From a virus, in the IMG/VR virus record IMGVR_UViG_3300044646_001629, positions 1-21,575 of that record: a stretch of DNA of 21,575 nt. One strand, written 5' to 3'. A program made the position numbers and the translations under genes. Of the stretch, positions 4,561 through 8,875 are shown piece after piece (the stretch's first letter is position 1; every line of letters begins with the position of its first letter). The notes below the pieces were generated by a model. That model was not told the DNA's origin. It searched no databases and saw nothing but the letters and a program-made list of their open reading frames with translations.

Positions 4561-4743
4561 ATGGACAAGCTATTTTCTACCAAAGAAGTTGCAGCGAGGA
4601 TCGGTGTTAGCCCAGTGACCGTCAGGCAATGGCTGCTGCGTGGCAAGCTGAAACCTCGGCCAAAGATAATCGGTGGCGGTTATCTATTTACCGAGGCTGA
4701 CCTACAGCGACTGAGCCAGAGAACTGACAACCGTAGAAAGTAG
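4561..4743 (+). CDS. Small MerR/excisionase-like HTH DNA-binding protein
   Basis: About 60 residues containing a MerR-type helix-turn-helix: FSTKEVAARIGVSPVTVRQW, then LLRGKLKPRPKIIGGGYLF (wing) and FTEADLQRL. This is the HTH_17/excisionase layout, in which the first helix reads 'S-T-K-E-V-A-x-x-x-G-V-S'. Such proteins act as excisionases or small transcription regulators. ATG 4561 is preferred over GTG 4540 because the domain begins there and a probable operator would otherwise lie inside the coding region. No good Shine-Dalgarno precedes it, so it may be leaderless or weakly translated. With one matching operator on each side and a recombination operon downstream, a regulatory role is more likely than excision; no integrase is seen nearby. 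Confidence 0.85.
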   Translation: MDKLFSTKEVAARIGVSPVTVRQWLLRGKLKPRPKIIGGGYLFTEADLQRLSQRTDNRRK

Positions 4744-6774: not shown

Positions 6775-6999
6775 ATGAAAACCAAAAAAACCGAAATGCC
6801 AGAAATTTGGCATAAGTTGAACATTCAGCTAACAGCAGCCGAGCGGCGCAAATTCAATGAATGGCGTCGTGAGTTGTACTACGAAGCTGATAGACAGCGC
6901 GATTTGATGCGACTTTTGACCGTCAGAACGCCGCATCGAATGGAATCCGCAGAAAAGATTTACGAAACAGTATGCAAGATACCTAGATTTGAGAAGTAG
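6775..6999 (+). CDS. Small basic helical protein of unknown function
   Basis: 74 residues, strongly charged (many Lys, Arg and Glu), predicted almost entirely helical, with no membrane segment or signal peptide. It has one Cys (KIYETVCKIP near the C-terminus) and no recognised motif. A moderate purine-rich RBS (AGAGGTAGGG) precedes ATG 6775. It sits directly upstream of csrA with only 37 bases between, so the two are probably co-transcribed. A DNA-binding or protein-binding early accessory role is possible but is not supported beyond position and charge. Confidence 0.6.
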   Translation: MKTKKTEMPEIWHKLNIQLTAAERRKFNEWRRELYYEADRQRDLMRLLTVRTPHRMESAEKIYETVCKIPRFEK

Positions 7000-7017
7000 C
7001 AGGCAGTTGTAGTTTTT

Positions 7018-7037
7018 TAACAAGGAGGTTTTTGTTA
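7018..7037 (+). promoter_or_regulatory. csrA leader hairpin with GGA loop over the Shine-Dalgarno
   Basis: TAACAA (7018-7023) can pair with TTGTTA (7032-7037), placing GGAGGTTT in the loop. The loop contains both the Shine-Dalgarno AGGAGG and an AAGGA (A-N-GGA) CsrA site, and the 3' strand reaches the first base of the start codon. That is the layout expected for CsrA binding and shutting off its own translation. Confidence 0.55.
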
Positions 7038-7234
7038 TGGGTAAGCTAGTTTTGAGCCGCAAGGTACGAGAGCGAATTATTGTTGGCGATCGCATCGCCG
7101 TTGAGGTCGTGTCGATCAAGGGCAATACCGTAAGGATCGCAATTGAGGCACCAAAGGAGGTCAAGGTGTTGCGACAGGAAATTGTGAATTTGCAAAGCGA
7201 CAGTGAAGGTGGTAAAACGGAATCAGCTGAGTAG
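7037..7234 (+). CDS. csrA: CsrA/RsmA-family RNA-binding translational regulator
   Basis: 65 residues, aligning along their length with bacterial CsrA: KLVLSRKVRERIIVGDRIAV at the N-terminus, GNTVRIAIEAPKEV, and VLRQEI. The RNA-binding determinants match E. coli numbering with an offset of two: Leu6 and Arg8 in strand 1, and Arg46 in LRQE corresponds to the essential Arg44. CsrA dimers bind GGA motifs in mRNA leaders and usually block ribosome access. A very strong RBS (AAGGAGG) precedes ATG and lies in a GGA loop, suggesting autoregulation. The tail after residue 50 is Ser/Glu-rich and variable, as usual. A csrA inside a phage early operon could retune host or phage translation. A strong terminator follows. 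Confidence 0.93.
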   Translation: MGKLVLSRKVRERIIVGDRIAVEVVSIKGNTVRIAIEAPKEVKVLRQEIVNLQSDSEGGKTESAE

Positions 7235-7273
7235 ACGCAGCTGCTGAAACAACAACGCGGGCAACCGCTAGAG

Positions 7274-7317
7274 AACCAGTCATTCAGGACGTCTACCCTG
7301 GATGGCTGGTTTTTTTG
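7274..7317 (+). terminator. Strong intrinsic terminator after csrA
   Basis: A 14-bp stem (7274-7288 with 7297-7311) made of AACCAG/CTGGTT, CAT/ATG and CAGG/CCTG, with two G-T wobbles and an 8-base loop, followed directly by a run of seven T (7310-7316). This is a textbook rho-independent terminator and ends the recombination/csrA transcription unit before the replication genes. Confidence 0.9.
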
Positions 7318-7328
7318 TTGGGTGAGAT

Positions 7329-8090
7329 ATGGGAAAATCGCCAGGGTTTTGGTTTTTTACGGGGGATTGGCTGAAAGATCCCGAGCTACGATTTTGCTCG
7401 ATTTTTGCTAGAGGTTTGCTTGTCGATTTGCTTTGCTACATGTTTGAAGCAAGCGAGCAAGGATACTTGAGCAGACCAGACGGAACGCCGAGGTCTGACC
7501 TGGAAATTGTGGACGCTATTTCAGGCGGCAGCCGCGAGGAAAAGCTGGCCGGTTTAGCTGAGTTAGAGGCCAGTGGAGTTATTTCCAGGGATTTGCGAGG
7601 TGTTTTGTACTCTAGGCGAATTGCCAGGCTGGCTGAGGTGTCAGAAATACGCAAGCAAGCAGGAAGCAAAGGCGGAAGCAAAACGCAAGCAAAACCTAAG
7701 CAAACTGACAAGCAAATGAGCAAGCAAAAACGGGGGGTTTCGGATTCGGATTCTGTTTCGGATTCAGATTCGTTTAATAACAATACACCCCCTAAACCCC
7801 CTGTGGGGGAAATGGGTGTTCTGTACGAGTTTAGCGAAAGCCTAAACACAGACGCCTTTCGAGTCGCCTGGAAAGACTGGCTACGCCACAGAGTCGAAAT
7901 CAAGAAACCACTTAAACCGACATCAGCAACCAGACAACTGGCGCAGCTGGCCAAGCTGGGGCCAGAAGTGGCAACGGAGTGGATTAACTACACCATCGCC
8001 AAAGGCTGGCAAGGGCTATCTGCCCCCGATCCAACCTGGCAACGCAGCGTGAGGAAGCATGAATCATTTACCGAGGAGCTAGGTTTCTAA
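7329..8090 (+). CDS. Replication initiator/organizer-like protein
   Basis: 253 residues in three parts. Residues 1-105 look like a winged-helix domain of the DUF1376/phage replisome-organizer type: FWFFTGDWLKDPELRFCS, ARGLLVDLLCYM, then EEKLAGLAELEASGVIS and LYSRRIARLAE. Residues 107-155 are a low-complexity Lys/Gln then Ser/Asp linker. Residues 160-253 form a second helical domain with AWKDWLRHRVE and KGWQGL, a C-terminal arrangement common in phage initiators. It should bind the phage origin and nucleate helicase loading. DNA encoding the linker carries phased AAGCAAA repeats, so the origin may lie inside the gene as in lambda O. The stop overlaps the next ATG. Confidence 0.75.
   Translation: MGKSPGFWFFTGDWLKDPELRFCSIFARGLLVDLLCYMFEASEQGYLSRPDGTPRSDLEIVDAISGGSREEKLAGLAELEASGVISRDLRGVLYSRRIARLAEVSEIRKQAGSKGGSKTQAKPKQTDKQMSKQKRGVSDSDSVSDSDSFNNNTPPKPPVGEMGVLYEFSESLNTDAFRVAWKDWLRHRVEIKKPLKPTSATRQLAQLAKLGPEVATEWINYTIAKGWQGLSAPDPTWQRSVRKHESFTEELGF
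7653..7728. repeat. Iteron-like array: seven AAGCAAA repeats, candidate replication origin
   Basis: Copies begin at 7653 (AAGCAAG, one mismatch), 7664, 7676, 7687, 7698, 7710 and 7722 (all exact AAGCAAA). Spacings are 11, 12, 11, 11, 12 and 12 bases, about one helical turn each. Copies fall in all three reading frames of the host gene, so peptide repetition does not explain them. Confidence 0.7.
7772..7809. other. AT-rich segment and C5/G5 hairpin beside the iterons
   Basis: After a run of GGATTC-type hexamers (7742-7771) there is an A/T-rich stretch (7772-7787), then CCCCC (7797-7801), TGT, GGGGG (7805-7809), a perfect 5-bp hairpin. An AT-rich unwinding region next to iterons is normal for origins. 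The assignment depends on the iteron interpretation. Confidence 0.45.
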
Positions 8091-8554
8091 TGAATCGCGA
8101 CGAAACAACCAAACTGATTAACCGCGTTTTTGTGCTGTTCCCAAGTTTTAAGAGCTGGTTTGACGAACTGCCCAGCCGCAACGCGACCGGCAAAGCGTGG
8201 ATGGATGCCCTCGGGGCTGTGGACTATGTAGACGCCTTGGCCGTACTGGATGCCTGGGCAACTGGCAAGCAAAAGCCGCCTGCTGGGTTTGAACGTGACC
8301 AGACAATCTATCGACTGGCAGCAAATGCCCGAGAATTAGCAAATTTGCGGCATAGACGCGAGCAAGCAGCCCAGGAGGTGTCAGTAGACGTAAAAGCGCG
8401 CAGGGCTGCCTACGAGGCGTTACCGAGGTTTAGCGGAAGTGCCAAAAAGGCGTATGACAAGATATTGAGCCGCAAACATGAATACGAGGACGGGAAGATG
8501 ACCGGCGTGGAGTGGGTTGAGTGGTGTAAAGTTTGTGCAGAGGAGGTGGCGTAG
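8090..8554 (+). CDS. G39P-like helicase loader/inhibitor candidate
   Basis: 154 residues. The first ~85 follow the pattern of the phage helicase loader family typified by SPP1 G39P: MNRDETTKLINRVFVLFPSF, a Trp (AWMDALG), a helix VDYVDALAVLDAWAT, and a Pro-containing exit (KPPAGFERD) before the next helix. Such proteins bind the replicative helicase and deliver it to the initiator at the origin. It overlaps the initiator gene by one base, the same order as initiator then loader in SPP1, which supports the call. No helicase gene follows, so the host DnaB would be the partner. The C-terminal half is helical and unassigned, and similarity is by pattern only. Confidence 0.55.
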   Translation: MNRDETTKLINRVFVLFPSFKSWFDELPSRNATGKAWMDALGAVDYVDALAVLDAWATGKQKPPAGFERDQTIYRLAANARELANLRHRREQAAQEVSVDVKARRAAYEALPRFSGSAKKAYDKILSRKHEYEDGKMTGVEWVEWCKVCAEEVA

Positions 8555-8875
8555 ATGAAAAGCGTTTTAATTACCCTGGCATTCATCCTGGGGCTACTTG
8601 CTACCGAGTGTTTTGGCCAACAGGCCGGCACAGCCGAAGTGGCTACAGACCAGGCGGCCTATGTGTTTGCAAAGCGTGAAGCCCAGCTGCAAGCGTCTAG
8701 GGGTGTAGTTGGGCATCTACTAGGCATCGCCCCAGGGTGCAGATTTGCAGGTGTGGGCAGCAGCAATTCCACAGCCAAGCCGAACCACTGCACAACCAGC
8801 AAATACAGGCTAGTAGCCCGAGCGTTTGCGATTGGAAGAAATGGCAAGGTTTACTGGTCAGCGCATTACAGGTGA
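8555..8875 (+). CDS. Small exported protein, host-like family
   Basis: 106 residues with a clear Sec signal peptide: Lys2, a hydrophobic core (VLITLAFILGLLA), and a likely cleavage near CFG-QQ (about residue 21). The mature part has AKREAQLQASRGVVGHLLGIAPG, FAGVGSS and C-x17-C before RLVARAFAIGRNGKVYWSAHYR. That order (helix with a conserved His, 'GVG', cysteine, Arg-rich strand, closing aromatic strand) resembles small secreted proteins I associate with planctomycete genomes, distantly CAP-like; this is from memory. Function is unknown. It sits between replication genes and the resolvase, so it looks like a captured cargo gene acting at or outside the membrane. Confidence 0.65.
   Translation: MKSVLITLAFILGLLATECFGQQAGTAEVATDQAAYVFAKREAQLQASRGVVGHLLGIAPGCRFAGVGSSNSTAKPNHCTTSKYRLVARAFAIGRNGKVYWSAHYR

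Follow-up and report, generated by a model that had tools for sequence, protein, structure and literature searches.

Opposed short-word arrays within a phage initiator gene as a probable replication origin

The replication initiator gene of a virus from a public collection carries two arrays of the word AGCAAA in opposite orientations, one in the code for the predicted DNA-binding domain of its product and one in the code for a disordered linker. These arrays are most likely the replication origin of the phage, with the words acting as iterons that are bound by the winged-helix domain of the initiator beside a TTTCGG-type tract that probably melts. The DNA is IMG/VR record IMGVR_UViG_3300044646_001629, which is probably a fragment, and the window, meaning the whole stretch analysed, comprises its positions 1 to 21,575 (21,575 bases). 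To our knowledge, hardly any uncultured phage has a known origin. The main features are as follows.

7329 to 8090, plus strand: replication initiator (O-like) gene, 253 aa, assigned by PHROG profiles, AlphaFold2 and BFVD
7393 to 7437, minus strand: inverted iteron array, TTTGCT (AGCAAA on the minus strand) at 7393, 7404, 7415 and 7427
7653 to 7728, plus strand: direct iteron array, AAGCAAG at 7653 and AAGCAAA at 7664, 7676, 7687, 7698, 7710 and 7722
7737 to 7775, plus strand: hexamer tract GTTTCGGATTCGGATTCTGTTTCGGATTCAGATTC (peptide VSDSDSVSDSDS), a candidate DNA-unwinding element recognized by codon bias and low stability
8090 to 8554, plus strand: candidate helicase loader gene, 154 aa, following the initiator gene (phrog_2289, E=0.021, a weak match)
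8555 to 8875: small signal-peptide-like gene, also at 4613 to 4909 in L003, 5815 to 6108 in L005 and 5878 to 6231 in L010

Two arrays and a hexamer tract in the initiator gene

An earlier reading of the letters alone (the sequence-only reading) had described seven copies of AAGCAAA, the first with one mismatch, in the linker DNA, and a recount bore out their number, positions and spacing. The copies lie 325–400 bp into the gene, in DNA for residues 109–134, with gaps of 11, 12, 11, 11, 12 and 12 bp. Over both strands of the window AAGCAAA occurs 14 times against an expectation of 5.9 ± 2.5, a count reached by none of 100 shuffles. The AAGCAAG at 7653 is a real, decayed copy, since most homologues keep an exact AGCAAA aligned with it. 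The conserved core is the 6 bp AGCAAA, which is not a dyad and has no inverted sub-repeats, and the bases between cores are free. The helical phasing claimed for the array holds between neighbours and fails over its whole length. Because 11–12 bp exceeds one turn of B-DNA, only neighbouring copies lie near one face; the 69 bp from 7653 to 7722 amounts to 6.6 turns at 10.5 bp, so that the array winds by more than half a turn in all.

Repeats in coding DNA may be the by-product of a repetitive peptide, in this case a KQ/SK-rich linker written with biased codons. This linker is predicted to be disordered and has many K, Q and S residues, and other 12-bp arrays that stay in frame simply reflect ordinary repeats in the peptide, such as AAKPAAKP. 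The copies here, however, use all three codon phases (0,2,2,1,0,0,0), as the sequence-only reading had noted. Synonymous recoding of the initiator gene with codons drawn from the window's own usage did not place six copies within 80 bp in any of 20,000 trials (maximum 4), and permutation of codons within the linker gave a six-copy array in 0/20,000. Homologous linkers have differing peptides (SKTQAKPKQTDKQ, SKKVANEKANRIANGKQ, SKTSSKRAANRVANEQQ), and the DNA word and its spacing stay constant. Codon phases, recoding and differing peptides together refute peptide-level repetition, to which we attach practically no probability; as judged from the sequences, the linker array reflects selection on DNA.

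Alignment of homologous initiator genes, the check suggested at the outset, gave conserved spacing and varying codons. Of 153 gaps between A[AG]CAAA words in homologous linkers, 148 measured 11 bp (94) or 12 bp (54), and the other five, of 22–24 bp, correspond to one lost copy. Homologues have 5 to 11 linker copies and vary in codon phase and peptide; examples are the window itself (SKGGSKTQAKPKQTDKQMSKQ), L002 (SKGGSKKVANEKANRIANGKQ), L031 (SKGGSKTSSKRAANRVANEQQTEQQ) and L027, with eleven positions. When each of 29 sequences was recoded synonymously in 2000 trials, p ranged from 0 to 0.0045 and was mostly 0/2000.

The sequence-only reading was sound for the linker half of this arrangement and missed the other, the inverted array at 7393–7437. 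This array starts 64 bp into the gene, in codons for the conserved peptide RFCSIFARGLLVDLLC of the N-domain; its gaps are 11, 11 and 12 bp, and an additional, overlapping TTTGCT lies at 7432. The opposed arrays are about 220–230 bp apart, a near-constant distance across records. All 28 distinct homologous genes tested that have a window-type N-domain carry the upstream array in 3–5 copies, with p ≤ 0.001 by synonymous recoding in each, and between its words synonymous changes do occur among homologues. Conservation at both places goes beyond what the codons require. Pairwise same-codon identity among homologues peaks at 0.74–0.86 over 7389–7445, where 0.27–0.41 is expected, and rises again to 0.61–0.74 at 7641–7680, compared with roughly 0.31–0.62 elsewhere; many homologues are closely related and so do not agree independently of one another. 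Synonymous codons are also conserved, more weakly, in a third zone at 7569–7610, where no obvious repeat lies.

The linker array is adjoined by a G run and then by GTTTCGGATTCGG..., which encodes VSDSDS. The hexamer tract at 7737–7775 is 62% A+T and contains the least stable 50-mer of 7600–7850, which ranks among the least stable 0.8% in the window. Its serine codons across homologous genes are TCN in 154/154 cases, compared with AGC/AGT in 252/601 elsewhere in the same genes, and a similar tract is kept in relatives of 35–41% identity. We predict that this TTTCGG-type tract is probably the melting site.

The initiator protein and its gene neighbourhood

Profile searches agreed with the earlier description of the gene as encoding a replisome-organizer-like initiator. 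Most of the protein (residues 75–235) matched phrog_678, replication initiation O-like, at E=5e-14, as did relatives L003 (E=1.1e-14) and L042 (E=2.1e-11), and phrog_13246, replisome organizer, matched at E=1.5e-4; Pfam gave no match at E ≤ 0.1. AlphaFold2, run with 29 relatives, predicts a winged-helix N-domain (about residues 7–112, pLDDT mostly 80–90), a disordered linker (residues 113–163, pLDDT below 50) and a helical C-domain (residues 175–250). The linker is encoded by 7665–7817, which holds nearly the whole linker array and the hexamer tract, in line with the earlier placement of the repeats in DNA for a disordered linker. Fold matches among viral proteins (BFVD) were to DUF1376, Lin1244_N, DUF6291 and replication-initiation proteins. 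A PDB fold search gave nothing significant (best matches at E about 0.1) and a PDB sequence search no meaningful match; since there is no close solved relative, DNA binding by the N-domain is a prediction from fold and context.

The context is a block of replication and recombination genes, in which RecE-like (start 4791), RecT-like (5675) and CsrA (7037) genes precede the initiator gene at 7329, and loader-like (8090), RusA (8874), terminase (9229) and portal (11772) genes follow it. The loader-like gene of 154 aa is retained 3′ of the initiator in the L010 group, in which the N-domain is swapped (see below). A DnaB-type helicase gene takes its place directly 3′ of the initiator in a clade with AACAAA words (Pfam E=2.7e-48 and 1.5e-51), and in a third clade a 169-aa gene follows the initiator, with a sliding-clamp gene further on. 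L009 has a homologue of the DNA polymerase III beta clamp downstream of its initiator (6786–7934; Pfam E=2e-16). The small, conserved gene with a signal-peptide-like start (CRFAGVGSSNSTA..PNHC) travels with the replication module. Directly 5′ of the initiator, in the window and in a domain-swapped relative, is a phage-encoded CsrA homologue (7037–7234 in the window; Pfam E=5e-19). Between csrA and the initiator gene lies a strong terminator-like hairpin with a U run (7271–7314; fold z = −5.45), and in L010 the equivalent place holds a hairpin with another sequence (z = −4.6). This suggests that the structure is conserved, and it may be a terminator or attenuator under regulation.

The main rival to an origin, although an improbable one, is that the arrays are operators through which the initiator or another phage protein represses or roadblocks the initiator gene, the origin lying elsewhere. 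The position of the upstream array, near the start of the gene, suits a roadblock or autorepression, and the strong hairpin just 5′ of the gene can be counted on the same side. Seven copies, however, are far inside the gene beside a constrained, weakly melting tract, and across phages such arrays occur in initiator linker DNA and not at promoters. Origin and operator roles can coexist, as in iteron plasmids, and they may do so here.

Less probable again is some other cis-acting site, for packaging (pac), partition or the exclusion of related phages. Partition systems do use short direct-repeat arrays. Against such a role, the start of the terminase gene is over 1 kb distant, no gene for partition was recognized, the array class is present in initiators of many families, and the word changes along with the initiator N-domain, as described in the next section. 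An inflection of GC skew at the array, which the sequence-only reading had named as a check on an origin, was absent at the arrays both in the window and in four longer relatives; phage skew mostly follows gene direction, so this is weak evidence either way.

Change of the word with the N-domain

A scan of viral sequences found 43 relatives of the initiator, and the linker array is present in every one with a window-type N-domain. A collection of genome contigs searched by protein pattern yielded no initiator relatives, and named phages only distant ones. No clear array was seen in the initiators of EF62phi and LBR48; the three copies of CCTAATA at 12 bp in Pam1 are in frame and hence uninformative. 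In 12 whole records all three-copy phased matches to AGCAAA fall within the two arrays, and a backwards control pattern gave no match in any of 16 records. The four of these 16 without a phased AGCAAA match comprise one domain-swapped record and three of the AACAAA clade.

In that clade (L029–L043) the linker word is mostly GAACAAA at a spacing of exactly 11 bp, and the upstream array has TTTGTT (AACAAA) at copies 1 and 3. The same word has thus changed in both arrays, which is what a common reader would be expected to produce. The clade shares ancestry, so the change from AGCAAA to AACAAA counts as one event and not many.

A natural domain swap separates the word from the rest of the protein. 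L010, L011, L015 and L016 share the window's C-domain (74–76% identical over residues 113–253) and the next gene, and have an N-domain unrelated to the window's, which matches phrog_2509 (E=6e-61) and resembles YdaU of Escherichia phage Rac (48.5%). None of the four has an AGCAAA array. They carry instead GTAACG/CGTTAC groups at 11, 12 or 22 bp, at both places: GTAAC at gene positions 337, 348, 360 and 382 (gaps 11, 12, 22), and GTTAC at 156, 167 and 189 (gaps 11, 22) and at 407. The same two word groups occur with other C-domains in VW-6S, CP2, ZX5, TL-2011b, PAN70 and Rac, and the nine YdaU-type genes tested have no such word outside the two groups (p from 0 to 0.0013). By eye, L583 and Vibrio phage 1.211.A have GTCAC/GTGAC words at both places instead. 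The word therefore goes together with the N-domain, whereas both N-domains have the spacing in common.

These changes bear on whether the arrays might act by shape, A-tracts every 11 bp curving the DNA with no sequence-specific reader. AAA runs do recur near the helical repeat, and lambda iterons are intrinsically bent (PMC5043065, PMC7466680). But the invariant part of AGCAAA includes its C (and usually its G) and has only 3–4 consecutive A, a spacing of 11.4 bp is poorly phased for curvature, the sole change seen, AGCAAA to AACAAA, occurs in both arrays, and the GTAACG of the swapped N-domain has no A-tract and yet the same spacing. We consider an effect of shape very unlikely. The predicted binding of AGCAAA by the winged helix of the initiator is strongly, if indirectly, supported.

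If the arrays are an origin bound by the initiator, copies of the protein would attach through their N-terminal winged-helix domains to the seven words that run one way in the linker DNA and to the four to five that run the opposite way in the code for the binding domain. Initiators on adjacent words, 11–12 bp apart, would line up as an oligomer, wrapping or underwinding the DNA, and the resulting strain would open the adjoining hexamer tract at 7737–7775. The C-domain would then recruit the helicase, through the loader in the window's clade and beside a phage DnaB in another. Stacking, opening and helicase recruitment are modelled here on lambda (PMC5043065, PMC7466680). The opposed arrays might pair by looping, bring in extra initiator or set direction.

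Known origins and related initiator families

By analogy, the candidate origin would work like lambda ori but is not one. In lambda the repeats occupy the central part of O, the initiator gene, beside a weak region and in an operon with a helicase-loading function (PMC5043065, PMC7466680); the iterons are four 19-bp inverted repeats bound by O dimers (six in Stx phages), next to a 40-bp A+T-rich region (PMC5043065, PMC7466680). The comparison with lambda in the sequence-only reading is apt for the layout, the window's iterons lying likewise in the linker-coding part of an initiator gene. It does not extend to the iterons. The AGCAAA core is not a dyad, and no 19-bp inverted-repeat iterons are present; the window has 6-bp non-palindromic direct words about 11.4 bp apart, in 5–11 copies across its family, and this family adds the second, inverted array in the binding-domain code. 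The counterpart of lambda's A+T-rich region would be the hexamer tract, and that of the P loader after O would be the gene with the weak phrog_2289 match, or the DnaB gene in the other clade.

In iteron plasmids the repeats are spaced at about two turns and generally lie outside the rep gene. Direct repeats adjoin a melting region and are bound by the initiator in P1, RK2, R6K and pSC101 (PMC5043065). The window similarly has direct repeats beside a candidate melting region, whereas the Rep proteins of these plasmids are unrelated to its initiator. Several RepA_N replicons have iterons inside the rep gene. A DnaD-like winged-helix N-domain binds short iterons in RepA_N replicons such as pSK41, pTZ2162 and the PLE RepA (PMC7145576). 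Their repeats are 8–9 bp, semi-palindromic and converge on poly-A, unlike the AGCAAA cores, which lack inverted sub-repeats, and the RepA_N domain (PF06970) was found neither in the window's initiator (E ≤ 0.1) nor in its relatives (0.05). Since an initiator gene that carries its own iterons is of an already known kind, the earlier suggestion of a new origin type was too strong.

The YdaU/phrog_2509 initiators (Rac ydaU, Pseudomonas phage VW-6S, Xanthomonas phage CP2) are closer in design. Their short words form two groups, one in the code for the N-domain and one in that for the linker, at 11/12/22 bp and followed by a purine-rich tract, and four relatives of the window use this N-domain; they differ in the N-domain itself, in the word (GTAACG/CGTTAC) and in the mixed orientation within groups. 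Open-licence papers yielded no published origin mapping to YdaU-type repeats. Rac has been reported with an active origin, oriJ (PMC3945230). We dropped E. coli oriJ as a proven case: ydaU of E. coli MG1655 (L593 3620–4477) has a DUF1376 N-domain, differs from the ydaU of Escherichia phage Rac and lacks GTAAC groups, and we did not find oriJ mapped to these repeats in the papers searched. The MG1655 linker has TGTTCAAACA-like repeats, and the origin word may vary with the ydaU allele from one E. coli strain to another.

The DUF6291, DUF1376 and Lin1244_N initiators have a predicted fold similar to the window's, and many of their linkers have AGCAAA words 11 bp apart; they differ in having no inverted upstream array and little sequence similarity. 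The likeness is at the level of fold, no Pfam match of the window's initiator to PF07120 or PF19808 being found. Among viral contigs with three phased AGCAAA words, 84/120 loci among the matches listed show an 11-bp gap. Such a gap changes the codon phase, so these arrays do not come from simple in-frame peptide repeats. Where all gaps are 12 bp, the loci mostly encode ordinary peptide repeats of unrelated proteins. With the array masked, 56 of the 67 frame-crossing AGCAAA ORFs of 100 aa or more among the matches listed resemble another of the set, which includes DUF6291 (17), DUF1376 (15) and PHROG replication-initiation, primosomal and replisome-organizer families. In viral contigs, AGCAAA arrays that cross the reading frame thus belong mostly to initiator genes. 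The inverted upstream array was present in 3/67 of the listed ORFs, all of the window's family, and in no other AGCAAA-bearing family; it was seen only in the window's family and the YdaU type. A two-array layout as a rule for all AGCAAA families is thereby ruled out, and the upstream array cannot be required by every such origin.

Control motifs at the same spacing also picked up initiators: 10/18 listed frame-crossing ORFs with ACAGAA and 51/60 with the reversed motif AAACGA resemble the AGCAAA initiators. The class is therefore wider than AGCAAA, and the motif scans are unusable as a background rate. A family with 'GWIKLHR...NYDKYQ' (L286–L363) has CAAACGA-type words at 11 bp in its linkers, and Riemerella phage GRNRAP2 has AAACC five times at 11 bp. 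L291 has up to 11 CAAACGA-like copies, and such linkers often continue with AAGAATGATAAGAATG-like tracts. A short repeat is consequently less unusual than the sequence-only reading supposed, other phage initiator families having other short words at the same 11–12 bp. In bacterial genomes (Pedobacter, Pseudomonas), four AGCAAA at exactly 11 bp are often intergenic or non-initiator short repeats, so that 11-bp spacing alone is no proof of an origin. Pedobacter (L409, L411, L419, L429, L440, L447 and others) has apparently non-coding arrays of TAGCAAAAGA-type 11-bp repeats, an unrelated family of short arrays at several places per genome.

As far as the compared genes indicate, many phages share this design and differ in the words. 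We found no account in open-licence papers of 11-bp word arrays in DUF1376-, DUF6291- or YdaU-type genes, nor of a self-contained origin cassette. Tentatively, and with rather more doubt than for the window's own origin, we suggest that many phage initiators may encode their origin twice, as short-word arrays in the code for the binding domain and in that for the linker, the N-domain setting the word and stacking setting the 11–12 bp. If this is true, an N-domain swap would move the protein, its word and most of the origin together, as such a cassette. The initiator gene by itself reveals both word and spacing, and the domain swap, together with the concerted change in two arrays, ties the word to the N-domain with no need for an experiment. 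If confirmed, this design would make origins predictable for thousands of phages and prophages, render initiator specificity readable as a code, and offer structural biologists a concrete nucleoprotein in the 11–12 bp packing. It would also explain the recurrent KQ/SK/EAN-rich linkers of DUF1376/DUF6291-type proteins as the shadow of a DNA signal.
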